Shown here: positions 17,781 through 55,393 of the stretch, piece by piece
Layout: each line of letters begins with the position of its first letter
How positions within the stretch are numbered: the stretch's first letter is position 1
Assembly: GCA_021802645.1 (NCBI GenBank)
Contig: JAJZRO010000001.1
Span: forward strand, 186,001-250,000
Source: Deltaproteobacteria bacterium
GTDB lineage: Bacteria > Desulfobacterota > Desulfobulbia > Desulfobulbales > Desulfurivibrionaceae
Direction: 5' to 3'
DNA length: 64,000 nucleotides
Notes under the pieces: model-generated
Seen by the model: the letters and a program-made list of their open reading frames with translations, nothing else
What the model was told of the DNA's origin: nothing
The model's database searches: none
Translations under genes and position numbers: made by a program

Positions 17781-18074
17781 TCACGCCGATGACTTGTGTT
17801 CCTTGAGCCACTCTCGCAACACGTCATTGATGCGGGTCTGCCAGCCGCGCCCCATAGCCCGGAACGCCTCCACCACTTCCGGAGCGAGACGGATGTTGAC
17901 CGCCTCCTTGGCCGGACGTTTCCCTGGTCCGCGTTGACCCGGACGGCGCTTGGGCAGCACCGCCACCAATTCCGCTGGCAATACTTCTGCGGCGGGTTTG
18001 AAATGTTTGAAGTCTTCTGTGGTGAGTTCGCGGACCTCGCCGTTTTTGTCAGTCAGGGGTGAGCGCTTTGCCAT
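17781..18074 (-). CDS. BrnA-family antitoxin-like protein, without BrnT
   Basis: 97 residues from the ATG at 18074 (GGAG upstream). The C-terminus AVNIRLAPEVVEAFRAMGRG with QTRINDVLREWL is the ribbon-helix-helix of BrnA, which represses its own operon and neutralises the BrnT ribonuclease. No BrnT frame is recognisable in the 172 bases upstream or elsewhere in the islet. Its base composition is closer to the host than that of the next genes. It may be a lone regulator or the remains of a toxin-antitoxin pair. Confidence 0.75.
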   Translation of the reverse strand: MAKRSPLTDKNGEVRELTTEDFKHFKPAAEVLPAELVAVLPKRRPGQRGPGKRPAKEAVNIRLAPEVVEAFRAMGRGWQTRINDVLREWLKEHKSSA

Positions 18075-18246
18075 AACTTCTTGACTCCCTGGCGTTTGCT
18101 TTCCGAAATATGGGGAGTGTCCCTGTTTTTCTGCGCGGGAAAGGGTTTCAAGCAAATCGTCAGTAAAACAAGCAGTGCGTTGGTAGAAGATAGCCCAAAG
18201 AGGCGGCTTACCCTGAGCCCATTTGTCAATGACAAGCTGAGACACA

Positions 18247-19146
18247 CTAAGAAACTATCAGCAATTCATCAAGACATGGTGGTTTTTTTCCGCCACAAAT
18301 GAATTCCGAAATAACAGATGGGGGTTTTCTCTCACAACCTCCGGTCATCAATCGGAAATCAATAGCATCAGTTAATCTATTACGCCTGAGATCCCTTGGC
18401 TGGCAACAATTTTTGTATTGCTCTGAACCACCACACCCACAGTATTCGTCTTCACGAATTTCCAATATTCGTTCATATGGATGATGCGCAACCTGATAGC
18501 CTGGCCATCGACCTAGAAATTCCAAATGGAGGTGACGTACAGCCCAAAGAGTATATATATCGAGAAGCCCAACGATGGGATCTCGTAATGTCCAAGTTTC
18601 ATCAGATGGCTCAAACGCACAGATGGAGCCATCTGTAAAATTAGTATGACGAGGTCCGATCCATAAGGGAATGCCGCTGAATTCATCGACCCAAAAGCCC
18701 CACCCTCGGACAATAAAAGGCCACCTGAACGAGATTCCAACAAGAAAAATCGCCTTCCGCAAAGAAGCAGGCAACAGAGCGCTCTCTGTTAAAACCCATA
18801 ACCCGGTTTCCTCTCTCCAGGACCGGGTATCCGGGTAGGCCTGTGACAATAAAATTAAATCCTTTTCACATTTTTGTTTAAGACCTGCGCTGAGGACCGA
18901 TGGGGCGGTATAGGGCGATCGGCGCCATTGTGTGGCCCATTGCCATTGTGGGTCCCACCACCATCGTGTGAGTTCTTGCCATTGTGGTGCGGTTTGTCTT
19001 TTTCTTTGTCGTTCATTGTGTTGCCCCGAGCCCAATGTTGTTGAATGGTCGGAATTCGTGTTGGGCACCACTATTCCGCCGTTTTTAACCGATGGGAAGA
19101 TGTTCCTGTCAAGCTGGTTACCTATCTTCTCTAAAACTTCCAACAT
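18247..19146 (-). CDS. E2 (ubiquitin-conjugating)-like protein with SEC-C zinc motif
   Basis: 299 residues; ATG at 19146 follows GGGGGAGAGG. Residues 164-190 read GPRHTNFTDGSICAF then W185 and DP, matching the E2 active-site pattern H-x-N...G-x-I-C...W: H167, N169, G173 and candidate catalytic C176. Residues 236-248, CGCGGSEQYKNCC, are a SEC-C zinc motif. Residues 52-75 are Trp/Gln-rich and are encoded by short CCATTGTGG-like repeats. No E1 (ThiF) or JAB peptidase gene is adjacent. It is divergent from a BrxR/CapW-like regulator. The E2 call is from motif reading only and needs a structure or profile test. Confidence 0.6.
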   Translation of the reverse strand: MLEVLEKIGNQLDRNIFPSVKNGGIVVPNTNSDHSTTLGSGQHNERQRKRQTAPQWQELTRWWWDPQWQWATQWRRSPYTAPSVLSAGLKQKCEKDLILLSQAYPDTRSWREETGLWVLTESALLPASLRKAIFLVGISFRWPFIVRGWGFWVDEFSGIPLWIGPRHTNFTDGSICAFEPSDETWTLRDPIVGLLDIYTLWAVRHLHLEFLGRWPGYQVAHHPYERILEIREDEYCGCGGSEQYKNCCQPRDLRRNRLTDAIDFRLMTGGCERKPPSVISEFICGGKKPPCLDELLIVS

Positions 19147-19190
19147 GCCTCTCCCCCTGCGGTCTTCAGTGTAAAATATATCCTGTCAAT

Positions 19191-19219
19191 ATAATAATCA
19201 CGAATACTTTTTATGTCAA
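19191..19219 (-). promoter_or_regulatory. Strong sigma-70 promoter of the E2-like gene
   Basis: On the minus strand TTGACA (19219-19214), 17-base spacer, TATTAT (19196-19191), 45 bases before the ATG. It is among the best -35/-10 pairs in the window, so expression probably depends on repression. Confidence 0.75.
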
Positions 19220-19258
19220 GATAAAGATTTTATGGAAACAAAATAGCCATAAAAAATG

Positions 19259-19279
19259 AATACAAATTCACTTTGTATT
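19259..19279. promoter_or_regulatory. Candidate operator of the WYL regulator
   Basis: AATACAAA and TTTGTATT form a perfect 8-base inverted repeat around TTCAC, midway between the divergent genes. BrxR/CapW proteins bind such palindromes as dimers near their own promoters. The site is 53 bases before the WYL gene and 40 bases behind the -35 of the E2-like gene. Confidence 0.5.
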
Positions 19280-19332
19280 GTGGTATGTGTAAAAAATAAA
19301 CACCCATTTGGCCACACAGGAGGAAACAATCT

Positions 19333-20220
19333 ATGCGATTGGGCGTACGCAAAAGAATGGAATTTATAGAGGCGCGACTATATTGGGAGGGCCGTATTAG
19401 CAGAAAGGATCTGGTTGATTTTTTTGAAATTTCTATACCGCAAGCGACAAAAGATATTAAGGAGTACAGCGAAAAAGCTCCTGACAATATTCGCTATGAC
19501 CAGAGCGTGAAACACTATATCGCAACAGAAAACTTCACCCCAACAGTCTCCACCCCTTCAAGTGAGGACTACCTAACTCGTTTACGTCTTCTTCCGGGCA
19601 AAAAAGACGCCACGAAATTTTTTAACAGTGGTTCCATTCCACCCTTTTCAGAAATTCCTAAATTCCAAAGGAGTGTTGATAAAAATGTGCTCAAACCACT
19701 TCTGCGATCTATCCATGATAAACAGGCCGTAGAAGTAAACTACCAATCAATGAGTTGTCCCGAGCCCGAACTTCGCTGGATCACTCCCCATTCTCTTGGA
19801 TGCGATGGTTTTCGTTGGCATGTTCGCGCATTATGCCACCGCTCGAGTATGTACAAAGACTTTAATCTTGGAAGAATATTGTCAATAACACGTACAAAAA
19901 ATGACAAATTTGATCATTCTATTGATTATGAATGGAATAATGAAATCACTATAAAAATAGCGCCAAATAAAGGATTATCGCCGGGCCAAAGAGCTTGCAT
20001 CGAAAGAGACTATGGAATGAAAGATGGGGAAATATCTTTAGAGATAAAGGCAGCTTTTTTTTATTACTTCAAAAAAAGATTTGGCTTTGGAGTAGATCAC
20101 GACAAGTCTCCAGGCAATGAACAACAGATAATTTTATTAAACCATGATGAAGTTAGCGCAAAAATTGATTTACTACAGTCAATGTCAAAAAAGAAAATAT
20201 GGCAATTGCGCACAGCATAG
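19333..20220 (+). CDS. BrxR/CapW-type WYL-domain transcription regulator
   Basis: 295 residues. AGGAGG precedes the ATG. An N-terminal winged helix (RKDLVDFFEISIPQATKDIK) is followed by a WYL domain with LRWITPHSLGCDGFRWHVRA and KDFNLGRILSI, then a WCX-like C-terminus. This layout is that of BrxR and CapW, repressors found beside BREX, CBASS and other phage-defence genes, thought to respond to a nucleotide or nucleic-acid cue. It is AT-rich and divergent from the E2-like gene, its likely target. Confidence 0.85.
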   Translation: MRLGVRKRMEFIEARLYWEGRISRKDLVDFFEISIPQATKDIKEYSEKAPDNIRYDQSVKHYIATENFTPTVSTPSSEDYLTRLRLLPGKKDATKFFNSGSIPPFSEIPKFQRSVDKNVLKPLLRSIHDKQAVEVNYQSMSCPEPELRWITPHSLGCDGFRWHVRALCHRSSMYKDFNLGRILSITRTKNDKFDHSIDYEWNNEITIKIAPNKGLSPGQRACIERDYGMKDGEISLEIKAAFFYYFKKRFGFGVDHDKSPGNEQQIILLNHDEVSAKIDLLQSMSKKKIWQLRTA

Positions 20221-46980: not shown

Positions 46981-48900
46981 TCAGCCTGCCGGCAGGCGGA
47001 CGCGGGCCTCCATGCCCTCGCCCTCCCGGGTCTTGAGCGAAAATTCGCCACCATGCGCGGCCACCGCCTGCTCCACCAAGGTGAGGCCCATGCCGGTGCC
47101 GTAAGTCTTGGTGGTGAAAAAGGGGTCTTTGGCCTTGGCCAGTTGGCTCTCGGCCAAGCCGATACCGGTGTCGTGCACCACGATCTCCACCCAGGCGCCG
47201 TCAGGCCGGACGCCGACCTCCAGGGTGCCGCCCTCGGGCATCGCCTCGATGCCGTTCTTGAACAGCTGCAGGAGTACCTGTCGCAACTGGCGCGGATCAG
47301 CGGAGAGAATCGGCTCCGGCTCCGGACAGTCGAGCCGCCAACTGACACCCTGCTTGACCATGGTATTCTGGAGCAGCAGCAGGGTCTTCTTGGCCAGACT
47401 ACAGACAAAGACCTGCTCCTTCTGAAGCTTCGCCTCGGTGACGAAATCGAAGAGCTCTTCCAGGGTCGACTCCAGCCGCGCGGTTTCCCGGATGATGACA
47501 TTGAGATACTTGAGCCACCCTTCGTCGGTGGTCTTCTTGGCCAGGATGCGCGACACCCCGCCGATGGAGGTGATGGGGTTGCGGATGGTGTGGACCAGCT
47601 GCGCCGCCATCTGGCCGATGGCGGAATAGCGCTCCGCCGCCACCAACTGGTCCTTGTTCTTGTCCAGCTCCTCGTAGAGCGACTGCAACTCGGCGATCTT
47701 TTTCTGCATGTCGAGGTACATGTGGCTCTGCTCGATGGCCAGACTCGCCTGGCTGGCAAAGAGCTCCAGCGAACTGATGTGCGAGTCGAGGATCGGCCGG
47801 CGGGTGACGTAGTTGTCGGCGATGATCACGCCAAAGGCCTGGCCCGGCGAATAGAGCGGCACCACCACAAAGGAATCCTCGCCCAGCAGTTGGATCAGGT
47901 CGTGCGGCACCTCCAGGGCAACCGGCGGCGATGGTGGGGATTCCCCCTCATGGTGCATCCAGGCGGCACCGCCGATGGAACGTTTGCGTTCCAGCACCAC
48001 CGGCACGCAACCGTTGGCCGGCGAGACCGCGATGCTGTGGCGCAGCCGGGAGGCGGTGATCAGGATATTTCCCTCGGCCGCGGCCGGGATGTTCAACTCG
48101 CGGACGATGCGGTTCACCGTCGTGTCGTCGCGGTCGCACTGACCGCGGAGATTCTGCACGATCTGAAGGAAATTCATGTCGCGCTCCTTCATCTCGCTCC
48201 AGATCTTGCCCGCCTCCTCGCGGCACCCCGGCCCGATGGCCATACGCCCCTTGAGCACCCGACCGCCGTCTTCGTAGATCGCCAGAAAGGCGCGATTGAA
48301 GCCGAGCCCCTCCTCGGCGGTGATCCCCACCAGGATGGCGCGCAGGATCTCGTCGAGTTCCACCGTGCTCAGATAGACGGTATTCATCTTGATGGAGAGC
48401 TGGTGCAGCAGCTGGATACGGAAGTGGGCCTCTTCCAGTTCCGCTTGATACTTGCGGTTCTCCAGAATGAGCCGCCGCTTCTCCAACGCCTTTTTGGCGA
48501 CATGGAAGATCTCGGCGAGCTGCACCGGCTTGGAGATATAGTCGGTGGCCCCCTTGCGCATGCAGTCGAGGGCCACGGAAAGATCGGCCACGCCGGTCAG
48601 CATCACCACCGCCACGTCGGGGTGGAGGTCGACGATCTGCGGCAGCAGGGAAACCCCGTCGGTATCGGGCAGATTGATGTCGAGCAGCACCAAGGCCACC
48701 TTGCGGTTGGCCAGCAACCACATGAGATCGGCGCCGTTGTCGCTTTCCGCGACAGCCAGATGGTGTTCCTCGAAATAGCTCTTGAGCGGTTCGCGGATGG
48801 CGGCGTCGTCGTCCACCACGATGATGATTTCGCCGTCTTGCAGGAGTTGGCCGAGGGAAAGCGAAATATGATGATGCAGTCCGGCTACCGGCTCAACCAT
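46981..48900 (-). CDS. Receiver-GAF-histidine kinase protein
   Basis: 639 residues. Order: N-terminal receiver (IIVVDDDAAIRE, phospho-acceptor LVLLDINLPDTDG, Lys in YISKPVQ), helical linker, GAF-like domain (about 190-400), HisKA with LVHTIRNPITSIGG, HATPase with DTGIGLAES and GTGMGLTL. The receiver-first layout places it as an intermediate in a phosphorelay or as an orphan sensor. No membrane helices. Confidence 0.92.
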   Translation of the reverse strand: MVEPVAGLHHHISLSLGQLLQDGEIIIVVDDDAAIREPLKSYFEEHHLAVAESDNGADLMWLLANRKVALVLLDINLPDTDGVSLLPQIVDLHPDVAVVMLTGVADLSVALDCMRKGATDYISKPVQLAEIFHVAKKALEKRRLILENRKYQAELEEAHFRIQLLHQLSIKMNTVYLSTVELDEILRAILVGITAEEGLGFNRAFLAIYEDGGRVLKGRMAIGPGCREEAGKIWSEMKERDMNFLQIVQNLRGQCDRDDTTVNRIVRELNIPAAAEGNILITASRLRHSIAVSPANGCVPVVLERKRSIGGAAWMHHEGESPPSPPVALEVPHDLIQLLGEDSFVVVPLYSPGQAFGVIIADNYVTRRPILDSHISSLELFASQASLAIEQSHMYLDMQKKIAELQSLYEELDKNKDQLVAAERYSAIGQMAAQLVHTIRNPITSIGGVSRILAKKTTDEGWLKYLNVIIRETARLESTLEELFDFVTEAKLQKEQVFVCSLAKKTLLLLQNTMVKQGVSWRLDCPEPEPILSADPRQLRQVLLQLFKNGIEAMPEGGTLEVGVRPDGAWVEIVVHDTGIGLAESQLAKAKDPFFTTKTYGTGMGLTLVEQAVAAHGGEFSLKTREGEGMEARVRLPAG

Positions 48901-49044: not shown

Positions 49045-49078
49045 CAAAAAAGCCGCATCCCCGCGTGGGGGATGCGGC
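49045..49078 (-). terminator. Terminator of the yedE-like gene
   Basis: On the minus strand GCCGCATCCCC and its complement form a stem of about 11 bases followed by TTTTTT, 42 bases after the YedE-like stop. Confidence 0.9.
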
Positions 49079-49119: not shown

Positions 49120-50379
49120 CTACATCTCCACCGTGAGCTTGTTGGTGTCCTCGTTCCAGCTGGCGATCAGGTACCACAACCCCATGGCCAGCGCAATAAT
49201 GGCCAAAGTGCCACCATACCCAAGGGCGTCCGGCATGTAAACCCACTTGCCGAGCGGACCGGCCGCCTCGGCCGTCCCTTCGGTCAACCCCCACTGCTTG
49301 AAGAGCGGCACCAGGAGGGCGTTGGTCACCCCGAAGAAGGGTACCGTGATCCACAGCTTGATCTGGCCTTCACCCACGCGCCACAGCGTTCCGGAACCGC
49401 AGCCGCCGGCCAGCATGGCACCGAGGCCAAAAATAAAGCCACCAACCACACCGCCGATCCCGAAGGTGCCGCGCACATACTGGACCGGCTCCCGCAGGCC
49501 GGTGGCCTTGACCACCGCCACCCCGATGGCGAGCGCCAGGATGCTCACCATGACGCCCCGGGCCAGGGTCCAGTCGCCGGTCATGTGCGGCTCACGGAAG
49601 GCCTGCACCATGCACCAGCGACCGCGCTGCATGGTATAACCGAGACCGGCGGCAATGAGCAGCAGGCCGGAGAGACCACCGGTGATGCCGAGATAGCTCC
49701 CATCGGCCAGATTGTTGTAGTCGGCGGTCAGAATCACCTGATCGCCATAGGCATACGCACCCCAGATCAGGCCGGCGATGCCGGCAATGGCCAGCAGCCG
49801 GCGCAGGACCACCGGAAACTCGATGGTCTTGGCGCCACCGGAACCCCAGGAGATATGCTCCATCTCCCAGTAGATATACTTGAGGCCGACCACCACGCCC
49901 AACACCAGGCCGAGCCACATGGTAAAGCCGTTGGCCGCCAGGTTGCCGATGGCGTTGTACATGCCGCCGACGTTACAGCCACCGGCCAGGGTCGAGCCGA
50001 TGCCCATAAAGATACCGGCCATCATACCCTTGACCATCTCCAGAACCGGTGGGATGCGGATGTCGAAGTTGTCGCCCAGGTTGGCGGAGATGAAGGCGCC
50101 GGCGATAAAGCCGATGCCGATGATCGAGCCGGTGTCCAGCAGCGCGCTCTTCGGCGCCGCCGAATCCCAGAGCCCAAGCTTGTCCCACATACCGGCGCCG
50201 TAGATGATCCACTCGCCCCAGTTACGCAGGGCACCCACCGCGCCCCAAGGGCGGGCCCACACCAGGACCAGCACACTCAAAAAGGCCACGATGAGCCCCG
50301 CTGTCACCGAGTTCCACTCGTCCTTGCAGAGCTTTTTGTACAGCTCCTGCACCTTGCTCCCGAAAACACTTTCACTCAT
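49120..50379 (-). CDS. yedE: YeeE/YedE-family sulfur-compound permease
   Basis: 419 residues from the ATG at 50379 (GGGGAGGAG upstream). About ten helices in two sulfur-transport repeats, each with a conserved cysteine motif: LAGGCNVGG and LAGGCGSGTLWR. In the characterised relative (TsuA/YeeE) such cysteines pass thiosulfate. Divergent from tusA and dsrE-like genes, it completes a YTD-type cluster. Confidence 0.93.
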   Translation of the reverse strand: MSESVFGSKVQELYKKLCKDEWNSVTAGLIVAFLSVLVLVWARPWGAVGALRNWGEWIIYGAGMWDKLGLWDSAAPKSALLDTGSIIGIGFIAGAFISANLGDNFDIRIPPVLEMVKGMMAGIFMGIGSTLAGGCNVGGMYNAIGNLAANGFTMWLGLVLGVVVGLKYIYWEMEHISWGSGGAKTIEFPVVLRRLLAIAGIAGLIWGAYAYGDQVILTADYNNLADGSYLGITGGLSGLLLIAAGLGYTMQRGRWCMVQAFREPHMTGDWTLARGVMVSILALAIGVAVVKATGLREPVQYVRGTFGIGGVVGGFIFGLGAMLAGGCGSGTLWRVGEGQIKLWITVPFFGVTNALLVPLFKQWGLTEGTAEAAGPLGKWVYMPDALGYGGTLAIIALAMGLWYLIASWNEDTNKLTVEM

Positions 50380-50482
50380 AAACTCCTCCCCATTGTTAAA
50401 TAAGAATTCCAACCCCAGCCGCCCTCCTGGCCGGAGACACGCTCACCGGATAACCACCTCATAATAATTAGGAACCTCAAAC

Positions 50483-50511
50483 CCTTTACCCGCGCCTCCC
50501 GCTTTTGTCAA
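50483..50511 (-). promoter_or_regulatory. Promoter of the yedE-like gene
   Basis: On the minus strand TTGACA (50511-50506), 17-base spacer, TAAAGG (50488-50483), about 105 bases before the ATG. The 421-base divergent region otherwise holds no gene. Confidence 0.55.
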
Positions 50512-50650
50512 GTTTGTCCGCACCCAAGCAGACGCCCCGTTTTTTCACCGTAAAAGGCCCAGAAAATCTGCCCGCTCCGTGGCCAAGGCCACCACCGCGC
50601 AACGACCCGCCACCAGCCGGGACTTCCTGAATCGCCACTCATTTTTGCCC

Positions 50651-50679
50651 TTGACATCAATTTTGAATGCTGGTAGAGA
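50651..50679 (+). promoter_or_regulatory. Promoter of the tusA-dsrE operon
   Basis: TTGACA, 17-base spacer, TAGAGA, 121 bases before tusA. Perfect -35, weak -10, which would suit activator dependence. Confidence 0.5.
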
Positions 50680-50800
50680 CTCATTTTCTGGAAAAAGATT
50701 GGGACGGCGGGCACCGCGCCATTCCATAAAAATTTGTGCAGGCTTACAGCCAGTTCCGGTTCGAAGGATCAATTTATAAACCTTGTGAAGGAGGTTCTCC

Positions 50801-51061
50801 ATGAGCGACGAGATTAAAACCGCCCCGGCGGGTATCACCGCCACCCGCAGCCTGGACGCCAAAGGCCTGAGCTGCCCCATGCCGCTGCTGCGCACCAAGA
50901 AGGAAATGGACAAGATCAACTCCGGCGAGATTCTGGAGATCCTCGGCACCGACCCGGGCTCCCGCAACGACCTGCCGGGCTGGTGTGCCCGTTCCGGCCA
51001 TGAGTACCTCGGCGAGAAAGAGGACTCCGGCTTCATCCGCTTCTACATCAAGAAAAAGTAA
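50801..51061 (+). CDS. tusA: TusA-family sulfur carrier protein
   Basis: 86 residues. LDAKGLSCPMPLLRTKKEMD holds the CPxP active cysteine that carries persulfide. GAAGGAGG precedes the ATG. First gene of the rightward half of the YTD cluster. Confidence 0.95.
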   Translation: MSDEIKTAPAGITATRSLDAKGLSCPMPLLRTKKEMDKINSGEILEILGTDPGSRNDLPGWCARSGHEYLGEKEDSGFIRFYIKKK

Positions 51062-51144
51062 GCAGCCCCCGTTTCGCAACGGTATCTGCCCCGCGCACCG
51101 CGAGTCATTCGCGGTGCGCTCGTTCTATCCACGAGGAGGCTATC

Positions 51145-51459
51145 ATGGCAAAAAGTTTGGGTATTTTTGTGACCTCTCCCCAGAACATGCGTCACATCAT
51201 GGGGATCTGCAAGGCCGCCAAGGCCAAGGGTTCCAAGGTGAAGGTATTCTTCAGCTGGTACGGTGTCCACCTGACCAAGTGTGCGAATTTCCTTGACCTG
51301 TGCAAGCTGGTGGACGACGTTTCCATCTGCGTCGACAGCTATAAGAACGCCGGCTACGATCCGGCCGACATCCCGCCGGGCCTCGAGGCCAAGAAGATGG
51401 CCACCCAGGCCCAGCACGGCGAGATCCTCGAAGATTACGAATGCTACCTGACCCTGTAA
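51145..51459 (+). CDS. DsrE-family protein
   Basis: 104 residues with the DsrE-like fold: SLGIFVTSPQNMRHIMGICK, VKVFFSWYGVHLTK, CVDSYKNAGYD. Cysteines at CANFLDLCK could accept sulfur. It is the DsrE element of the YedE-TusA-DsrE cluster and may exchange persulfide with TusA. Confidence 0.88.
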   Translation: MAKSLGIFVTSPQNMRHIMGICKAAKAKGSKVKVFFSWYGVHLTKCANFLDLCKLVDDVSICVDSYKNAGYDPADIPPGLEAKKMATQAQHGEILEDYECYLTL

Positions 51460-51472
51460 GAGGAGAGGAACC

Positions 51473-51787
51473 ATGTCTAAGAAAGTAGGATTTTTGCTGG
51501 TAAACAAGGAGTACACCTTGGACGGTATCCGCTCCACCCTGGGTCTGGCCGTCGAGAACATGTTCTCCTATTCCTATATCATGTACAATGAGCTGCCGGA
51601 ACTGAGCGACTACCACAAGGAAAATATCGACTGGGTGCGCGACATGGAAGGCGAGGTGTACTCCACCGTGGACGCCAACGTCGAGAAGCACGGCTTGGTC
51701 AAGATCTCCCTCGAGGAGATCGGCAAGCAACTGCGCGACCTGGACATCATCGTGCCCTACGGCATCATGCGTTCCGACAAAAGCTAA
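51473..51787 (+). CDS. Conserved DsrE-like small protein of the YTD cluster
   Basis: 104 residues: KKVGFLLVNKEYTLDGIRST, YSYIMYNELPELSDYHKENI, then VPYGIMRSDKS. It has an alpha/beta layout like DsrE but no cysteine, so it is probably a structural partner. AGAGGAG precedes the ATG, 13 bases after the previous gene. It fits the first of the two conserved hypothetical genes of this cluster. Confidence 0.8.
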   Translation: MSKKVGFLLVNKEYTLDGIRSTLGLAVENMFSYSYIMYNELPELSDYHKENIDWVRDMEGEVYSTVDANVEKHGLVKISLEEIGKQLRDLDIIVPYGIMRSDKS

Positions 51788-51805
51788 GTTCAAGGAGCTG
51801 ACCCC

Positions 51806-51979
51806 ATGAAACTCTTGCATGTATACCGTTCCGAAGCGAACGATGACGTTAAGAAGCTGGTGGAGATCGTCTCCGAGGGCCGCGAGTGCCAAAGCTTCAA
51901 CCTGAACGTCGAAAGCCCGGATTACGACAAGCTGGTGGATATGGTGTTCGACGCCGATCAGACCATCTGCTGGTGGTAA
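51806..51979 (+). CDS. Small DsrH/TusB-like protein of the YTD cluster
   Basis: 57 residues: MKLLHVYRSEANDDVKKLVE, ending DQTICWW. AAGGAG lies ahead of the ATG, 18 bases after the previous stop. A cysteine near the end (ICWW) and another at RECQ could carry sulfur; the compact size recalls DsrH/TusB. It fits the second conserved hypothetical gene of the cluster. Confidence 0.8.
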   Translation: MKLLHVYRSEANDDVKKLVEIVSEGRECQSFNLNVESPDYDKLVDMVFDADQTICWW

Positions 51980-52020
51980 GTCGCCCCGCGCTGACTTATT
52001 ATCTGTCCCTTATGAAGCAA

Positions 52021-52058
52021 CAAAGCCCCTGCCGGATGCCGGCAGGGGCTTTGTTTTT
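52021..52058 (+). terminator. Intrinsic terminator of the tusA-dsrE operon
   Basis: AAAGCCCCTGCCGG pairs with CCGGCAGGGGCTTT around ATG, then TGTTTTT. Confidence 0.92.
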
Positions 52059-52073
52059 GGCGGGCAGGGAAGG

Positions 52074-53599: not shown

Positions 53600-55393
53600 A
53601 TGGCGCCTGCCCCCCCTCGCGCCGCCATCGCCGGAGTGATCCTGGCCGGGGGTACCAGCTCCCGCTTCGGCAGCAACAAGGCGCTGGCCGATTACCAGGG
53701 CGAACCGCTCATCACCCGCGCGGCCACCATCCTGGCCTCACTCTTTGACGAACTGCTGCTGGTCACCAACACCCCTGAGGTCTATCGTTTTCTCGGCTGG
53801 CCCATGGTGGGGGATCTTTATCGCAACGCCGGCCCCTTGGCCGGGCTCCACGCGGCGCTCGCCACCATCACCGCCGAACGGGCCATGGTGGTGGCGTGCG
53901 ACATGCCGAATCTCAACGCCGCGCTCATCCGGTTTCTTTGCGACCAGGGGACCGAGTGGGATGTGGTGCTGCCCCGGCTGGCCAACGGCCGCGAACCACT
54001 GCACGCCGTCTACAGCAAGCGGTGCCTGCCGGTCATCGAACGTCACCTGGCCATGGAGCAGCGCAAACTCTGGCGCCTCTTTGCCGACCTCAAGGTGCGC
54101 GAGGTGGGGGAGGAGGAACTGCTCGCCGTGGTGCCGGATCTCTCGCCCTTCCACAATATCAACCGGCCGGAGGATCTCGCCGCCGTCCCGCCACCGGGCC
54201 CACTCTCGCTGACGGCGGCCCAGGCGGTGCTCCGGCAACAGATCATCCCCACCGTTGCCGAAACAGTACCGCTGGCCGCCGCATTGGGCCGCATCCCCGT
54301 GGCGCCGGTGCGCGCCCCGCTTGCGGTCCCTCCCTTCTGCCAATCGACCCGCGACGGCTTTGCCGTGCGGAGCCGTGATCTTCGCCCCGCCTCGGCCAAG
54401 CATCCGGTTTGCCTTGCCATCCGCGGCGAAATCGCGGCCGGCGACACCGCCAGCCACCGCCTCGGCCGCGGCGAAACCCTGCGCATCATGACCGGCGCCC
54501 GATTGCCAATCGGCGCCGATGCGGTGGTGCCCTTCGAGGCGGTTCACGAAGAAAATGGCGTCCTCCGCCTGACCGCCCCGCTACGCCGCAACAGCAACCT
54601 CCGACCGGCCGGCACCGACTGCCGCGCCGACCAGGTACTCACCAGGGCGAGCCAACCGCTCACCCCGTACGACTTGGCCCGTCTGGCCACGGCCGGGGTG
54701 ACGCACCTCCCGGTTCATGCCCGGCCACGGGTCGGCTTTCTCTGCACCGGCAGCGAGCTGGCCACGGATGCCGCCACCCTCCAGCCTGGTCAGATCATCA
54801 GCGGCAACCGCCCTTTGCTCCGGGCCTTGCTGCAACAGGGCGGCGCCGAGCCGGTGGACCTCGGCAGGGCACCAGACACGGTGGCCGCTCTCACCGCCGC
54901 GCTGACCACGGCCCAATCGCAGGGCCTCAGTCTGTGCATCACCACCGGCGGCATGGGGCCAGGAAAATACGACCTGGTCCAGCATACGCTCACGCAACTC
55001 GGCGGCCGTTTCCTTTACCATAGCCTCAAGGTCCGGCCCGGCAAGGCCACCTTAGCGGCCATGGTGGGCAGCCTGCTGGTCCTGGCGCTACCCGGGCCGC
55101 CACCGGCCGTGCATCTCCTCTTCCACGAACTGATCGCCCCCCTCATCGCCCAGGCGCAGGGCAAGCGCCAATGCCTGCCCCGCCCGATCCGCGCCACCCT
55201 CACCACCCCGGTCCAGGTCCGCCAGGGCGGGGTGCTCCATCTCAAGGAGGCGGTACTCTTCCCTCTTGCCGGCTCGCTCCATGCCCGCCTGCCCCGGCAG
55301 GGCGAGGCTGCGAACGCCATCCTGCACATCCCGGCCAACCGGAAAACCTTGCCGGCCGGCGCCGTCGTTACCCTCCATCCGCTGCCCCGCTGA
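53600..55393 (+). CDS. MobA-MoeA fusion protein
   Basis: 597 residues. Residues 10-195 are MobA (GVILAGGTSSRFGSNKALAD, MVVACDMPNLN, FHNINRPEDL); residues 203-597 are MoeA (FCQSTRDGFAV, MTGARLPIGADAVVPFEAV, CITTGGMGPGKYD). It would insert molybdenum and add GMP on one chain, consistent with heavy use of bis-MGD enzymes. The MoeA domain has TTGGMGPG in place of the usual TTGGVSxG. Confidence 0.93.
   Translation: MAPAPPRAAIAGVILAGGTSSRFGSNKALADYQGEPLITRAATILASLFDELLLVTNTPEVYRFLGWPMVGDLYRNAGPLAGLHAALATITAERAMVVACDMPNLNAALIRFLCDQGTEWDVVLPRLANGREPLHAVYSKRCLPVIERHLAMEQRKLWRLFADLKVREVGEEELLAVVPDLSPFHNINRPEDLAAVPPPGPLSLTAAQAVLRQQIIPTVAETVPLAAALGRIPVAPVRAPLAVPPFCQSTRDGFAVRSRDLRPASAKHPVCLAIRGEIAAGDTASHRLGRGETLRIMTGARLPIGADAVVPFEAVHEENGVLRLTAPLRRNSNLRPAGTDCRADQVLTRASQPLTPYDLARLATAGVTHLPVHARPRVGFLCTGSELATDAATLQPGQIISGNRPLLRALLQQGGAEPVDLGRAPDTVAALTAALTTAQSQGLSLCITTGGMGPGKYDLVQHTLTQLGGRFLYHSLKVRPGKATLAAMVGSLLVLALPGPPPAVHLLFHELIAPLIAQAQGKRQCLPRPIRATLTTPVQVRQGGVLHLKEAVLFPLAGSLHARLPRQGEAANAILHIPANRKTLPAGAVVTLHPLPR

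Follow-up and report, generated by a model that had tools for sequence, protein, structure and literature searches.

A complete YTD cluster encoding type II DsrEFH in a genome of the Desulfurivibrionaceae

Gene content of the locus

The window, by which we mean the whole stretch of 64,000 nucleotides analysed here, comes from the genome of a Deltaproteobacteria bacterium of the family Desulfurivibrionaceae (GenBank assembly GCA_021802645.1, contig JAJZRO010000001.1, positions 186,001 to 250,000 of the forward strand). Between positions 49,120 and 51,979 it holds a YTD cluster of five genes: yedE, tusA, dsrE and two small genes, dsrF and dsrH. An initial annotation had recognized a complete YTD cluster and had considered its two small proteins undescribed. 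The first point held, with all five genes in place and their synteny largely repeated across 110 loci, but both small proteins have already been described as F and H subunits (PMC13293266; PMC13047784). The locus genuinely belongs to a system already in the literature, of which it is a complete and ordinary example.

The yedE gene (49120-50379, minus strand) encodes a YeeE/YedE-like sulfur transporter of 419 amino acids, assuming an ATG start; the longest open reading frame (ORF) reaches a TTG at 50412. The protein matches the Pfam family Sulf_transp at 160.5 bits (cut-off 27, E 9e-47) and falls under the NCBIfam cut-off for YedE/FdhT (78.7 versus 350 bits). On the plus strand, tusA (50801-51061) encodes a sulfur carrier of 86 amino acids with a CPMP motif (Pfam TusA, 88.8 bits, cut-off 28.6, E 2e-25). 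It is followed by dsrE (51145-51459, 104 amino acids), which matches Pfam DsrE with an E-value of 0.0044, under the family cut-off, then by dsrF (51473-51787, 104 amino acids, cysteine-free) and dsrH (51806-51979, 57 amino acids, ending in ICWW). A Pfam scan of DsrF and DsrH gave no credible match, and NCBIfam models compared with 49 DsrH members gave matches at chance level only. The genome is 2.55 Mb in 38 contigs, is 99.4% complete and carries a single copy of type II dsrE.

In cable bacteria, the dsrE of the YTD cluster and its two hypothetical neighbours have been identified as DsrEFH type II, a system found in 985 genomes (PMC13293266, ISME J 2026), and the same three proteins were independently modelled as a DsrEFH-like double heterotrimer (PMC13047784, BMC Genomics 2026). 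The window locus has the gene set by which YTD is defined, in which yedE, tusA and dsrE are joined by two to three small conserved genes, and we found no difference from the clusters described in PMC12998232 and PMC9751629. It also has the synteny of DsrEFH type II, in which three small genes adjoin tusA and yeeE/yedE. The cable-bacterial system and the window share five syntenic genes, a single DsrE cysteine that never varies, two more small subunits and co-occurrence with dsrAB, a likeness that we judged from the published description of the E. aureum GS proteins. The two differ in that DsrF has two cysteines in cable bacteria and none in the window.

The transporter and carrier could instead act as a YeeE/YeeD pair that takes up and splits thiosulfate, with E-F-H only accepting the products, as proposed in PMC13047784. 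We consider this unlikely. YedE does match the TsuA models partially, but it reaches 91.9 bits where the cut-off is 400 and, with a second TsuA model, 79.7 bits where the cut-off is 645. The window TusA resembles the TusA model more closely, at 57.3 bits compared with 21.1 for YeeD (cut-off 147.5), and thiosulfate failed to persulfidate the proteins of cable bacteria (PMC13293266).

Distribution, conserved residues and folds

Type II DsrE was found in 53 of 58 related genomes and in all 39 of those of good quality (completeness of 90% or more, contamination of 5% or less), which excludes chance for the cluster. Two genome searches, whose results overlap and include partly the same contigs, gave 110 parsed loci (30 and 80), with TusA at 108, DsrF at 107, YedE at 105 and DsrH at 103; judged by eye, most of the missing genes were at contig ends. 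The divergent orientation of yedE, which the initial annotation had pointed out, is real and usual for the order, as yedE diverges from tusA in all 80 distinct loci with both genes. In a sample across the phylum, 23 of 27 loci with YedE were co-directional and the four divergent ones all came from the order of the window. Together these counts indicate that divergence is an order-level trait, shared by the window with the other loci of its order.

A few loci depart from this arrangement. One (L149, genome G005) has tusA and dsrEFH but no yedE within the 5.3 kb read, and another (L171, genome G201, contig C222) has a type II dsrE-dsrF pair about 4 kb from dsrA, with no tusA or yedE found beside it. 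A search of viral contigs (query P0004) returned two loci with only 18 matched residues each.

Conservation of cysteines differed among the three subunits. We compared a close set of 79 distinct E-F-H triplets, out of 103 loci with all three genes, and a phylum-wide set of 40 places hand-picked across the score range from 61 matches, with a DsrF at all 40 places and a DsrH at 38. DsrE Cys62 is invariant in both sets (79/79 and 40/40) and is the sole DsrE cysteine kept across them; Cys53 and Cys100 are present in 76 of the 79 close loci but are not kept phylum-wide. The residue of E. coli TusD that lines up with Cys62 is Cys78, in agreement with the type II description, in which the conserved cysteine (Cys67 in E. 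aureum) takes the place of type I Cys78. The best-kept DsrF cysteine occurs in at most 48 of the 79 triplets, and 21 DsrF proteins have no cysteine. In DsrH, position 55 (the cysteine of ICWW) is Cys in 74 close loci and Ser in five, whereas Trp56 is present in all 79 and Trp57 in 78, its sole absence being at a contig end. Phylum-wide, all 38 DsrH proteins end in WW, preceded by Ser in 27, Cys in 10 and Thr in one.

This pattern suggests that DsrE carries the sulfur and that the ICWW cysteine is incidental. The initial annotation had envisaged persulfide transfer through the 57-residue protein, and retention of the cysteine in most close relatives fits such a role. We nevertheless regard DsrH as a very improbable carrier. 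Ser or Thr replaces the cysteine in 28 of 38 proteins across the phylum while the two tryptophans stay, so we rejected the cysteine as a conserved active site; in addition, TusB of E. coli is cysteine-free, and in vitro DsrH received no persulfide from TusA (PMC13293266). The survey points to Cys62 of DsrE as the residue to mutate, and no effect would be expected from mutating the ICWW cysteine.

The type II family and both type I proteins that we saw (n = 2) have a tryptophan as their last or second-last residue. E. coli TusB ends in W (...QMAW), and DsrH of Allochromatium vinosum ends in ...VQAW in the aligned part of a PDB alignment, one residue before the chain end. The window DsrH ends in WW and is shorter, at 57 amino acids compared with 95 in E. 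coli and 102 in the A. vinosum chain. The type I systems, DsrEFH of A. vinosum and TusBCD of E. coli, also share with the window the active cysteine in E and the DsrE/F fold of F, and the window order E-F-H corresponds to tusD-tusC-tusB of E. coli.

The initial annotation had described one small protein as DsrE-like without cysteine, and structural modelling bears this out. AlphaFold (AF2) models of DsrF and DsrH, built from alignments of 49 rows, had pLDDT values of 92.7 and 93.1. For DsrF, the list of PDB matches is headed by structures of the DsrE/DsrF family with Z values of 10.1 to 8.5, above most unrelated folds: 3mc3 (10.1), 2qs7 (10.0), 1jx7 (10.0), 3pnx (8.8), chain 2d1p_A of TusBCD (8.8) and chain 2hy5_A of DsrEFH (8.5). 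Foldseek returned one match with an E-value below 0.001, again 3mc3. The cysteine-free protein of 104 amino acids has, in its model, the fold of the DsrE/DsrF superfamily, an assignment that establishes the superfamily and not F over E. The DsrH model has a beta-alpha-beta-alpha-beta arrangement, and the identity of DsrH rests on its position, size class, C-terminal tryptophan and the published complex.

Partner genes and the predicted sulfur relay

Genes for several expected partners of the cluster are present in the same genome. We found dsrA (580.9 bits) with dsrB and dsrD adjoining it, a DsrC with a CX10C end, a second protein of the DsrC family, and aprA (942.7 bits). The dsrAB partner genes of DsrEFH type II are of the reductive type, and those found here are probably of that type as well. 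Among 296 genomes of the phylum, 59 had type II DsrE (one match, in G152, is weak and contains a stop) and 147 had dsrA. All DsrE-bearing genomes but one (G323) had dsrA (58/1/89/148, Fisher p 7e-20, relatedness uncorrected).

This co-occurrence would be unexpected if the cluster served tRNA thiolation, as TusA and TusBCD do in E. coli. Gene order and the kinds of subunits are the same as in tusDCB, but the genome has no match to TIGR03012 (TusD/DsrE) at E 0.001. We consider a tRNA thiolation relay extremely improbable, and for want of that match we also set aside type I membership.

We consider it likely that the cluster is a module for the import and relay of sulfane sulfur that feeds DsrC and a Dsr pathway run oxidatively. 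YedE would import sulfane sulfur, derived from polysulfide, thiosulfate or elemental sulfur, across the membrane, and TusA would take it up as a persulfide on the cysteine of its CPMP motif. From TusA the sulfur would pass to Cys62 of DsrE, within a DsrE-DsrF-DsrH complex, and DsrE would hand it over to DsrC. The DsrC-bound sulfur would then enter the reductive-type DsrAB pathway in the oxidative direction, with the resulting sulfite passing to AprAB and Sat. DsrF and DsrH would be structural or docking subunits rather than sulfur carriers. The relay would serve sulfur oxidation or the oxidative half of sulfur disproportionation.

Published experiments lend support to the central steps. In vitro, persulfidated TusA of cable bacteria loads Cys67 of E. 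aureum DsrE and neither DsrF nor DsrH, and sulfur passes reversibly between TusA and DsrE and on to DsrC (PMC13293266). Transfer among TusA, DsrE and DsrC in the window strain is predicted by analogy with these proteins, and the substrate and in vivo direction given above are likewise our inference. A different route has been suggested for Desulfurivibrio dismutans, in which no DsrEFH genes were reported and TusA was proposed to load DsrC directly (PMC12142623).

Several observations weigh against this relay or against the subunit assignments behind it. The structure list for the DsrH model is unspecific, with 2hy5_A at Z 4.3 tied with unrelated chains, and Foldseek gave no match with an E-value below 0.001. 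Comparisons of DsrF and DsrH with the type I F and H proteins by hhalign and by PDB profile searches found nothing; shuffle z values were 0.6 for F with TusC and 1.7 for H with TusB, and we dropped sequence links between these pairs. For DsrE, the shuffle z with TusD was 2.9, yet those with TusC (3.5) and TusB (4.3) were no lower. As F and H have no significant sequence similarity to their type I counterparts, structure is needed to relate them, as the papers also say. In addition, 89 of the 147 genomes with dsrA have no type II DsrE, and the Dsr pathway as such can therefore do without it. Finally, we recognized by eye no sulfide:quinone oxidoreductase among 11 PF07992 matches (E 1e-10) in the genome, a check in which the open frames of these matches were read (two not being the matched frame) and one was domain-scanned; weaker matches lay outside it and we do not claim absence. 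About 1.5 kb from dsrA, beside dsrAB, the genome encodes a flavoprotein resembling CoA-disulfide reductase (locus L120, 661-2385, minus strand, contig C36), whose C-terminal part resembles a rhodanese on visual inspection. This protein is possibly a polysulfide reductase.

The cluster might instead be specific to sulfur disproportionation and mark strains that grow by it, which we regard as possible but doubtful. YTD occurs in all elemental sulfur disproportionators of PMC12998232, where YTD and MOLY are named as the best disproportionation candidates, and all five YTD proteins are more abundant during thiosulfate disproportionation (PMC9751629). The genome also has a MOLY-like set on another contig (locus L179, 3365-7162, contig C22), identified by gene content. 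It comprises a TorD/DmsD-type chaperone, a PhsA-like molybdoprotein with a TAT signal and a 4Fe-4S subunit. We saw no membrane anchor encoded by the adjacent ORFs, and this content fits the description of MOLY in PMC12998232, with MolyA, MolyB and a TorD-type MolyC but no anchor. Homologues at E 1e-60 or below occur in 47 of the 58 relatives, a count that pools orthologues with other homologues. Against a marker role, YTD also occurs in some strains for which the evidence speaks against disproportionation, and YTD alone was judged no marker (PMC12998232). Moreover, of 63 cultured disproportionators only 25 have type II, which also occurs in sulfate reducers unable to disproportionate (PMC13293266), and DsrE is present in every good-quality relative of the window strain. 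The locus by itself does not decide between oxidation and disproportionation, and we consider a relay into a reversed Dsr pathway, used in either lifestyle, most likely.

The module is central to a live question, namely whether sulfur is oxidized through a reversed Dsr pathway in sulfate reducers and disproportionators. To this the locus contributes one further genome, and the strain, which combines YTD with a MOLY-like set, is well suited to testing two competing marker hypotheses.

Intergenic regions and neighbouring genes

The spacer between tusA and dsrE contains a hairpin (51093-51119, plus strand) with an 11-bp stem and a 5-nt loop, and the 83-nt spacer has a fold z of -3.4. Across 80 distinct loci, these spacers have a mean z of -2.57, with values below 0 in 78 and below -2 in 49. 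An uninterrupted stem of at least 8 pairs is present in 44 of the 80, compared with 18% of shuffles, and in 33 a stem of at least 7 is followed by at least 5 T within 10 nt. The hairpin thus recurs at the same place in relatives, with divergent sequence and often with a T-run. Covariation is weak, with double changes at two of 13 pairs (11 loci of the same family).

We suggest that the ratio of TusA to DsrEFH may be set by this hairpin, acting as a leaky terminator or as a processing site. More tentatively, such an element would balance a shared TusA against a dedicated DsrEFH, while the C-terminal tryptophan of DsrH, changing from AW in type I to C/S/T-W-W in type II, would be a docking or assembly element and no redox motif. 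A literature search joining tusA, dsrE, hairpin, operon and sulfate-reducing returned no paper. Tryptophan, terminator and intergenic are not mentioned in the main text of PMC13293266 or PMC13047784, supplements being outside the search; both points may nevertheless have been published. The C-terminal tryptophan of DsrH/TusB and the recurrent tusA-dsrE hairpin are small additions that we did not find in these two papers.

The divergent region between yedE and tusA (50380-50800) gave a mixed result for the TTGACA promoters that the initial annotation had placed on both sides. Exact TTGACA hexamers are present at 50506-50511 on the minus strand and 50651-50656 on the plus strand. However, the -10 hexamers 17 nt past them, read by eye as TAAAGG and TAGAGA, each match at three of six positions, and a sigma-70 promoter scan listed neither site. 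The window contains 20 copies of TTGACA where 18.6 are expected. Terminator-like hairpins lie at the outer ends of the cluster. The one 3' of yedE (49052-49078, minus strand) has 11 pairs followed by TTTTTT, and the one 3' of dsrH (52019-52055, plus strand) has a T-rich tail (fold z of -5.0 for 52015-52065).

Just downstream of yedE, the window encodes a hybrid protein that combines response regulator, GAF and histidine kinase domains (46981-48900, minus strand), a possible regulator. MobA-like and MoeA domains are fused in one protein (53600-55393) 1.6 kb downstream of dsrH. Farther away, a low-GC island with two ORFs of unlike codon use (18247-20220), where GC is 44% at 18001-20000 compared with about 62%, was possibly acquired.

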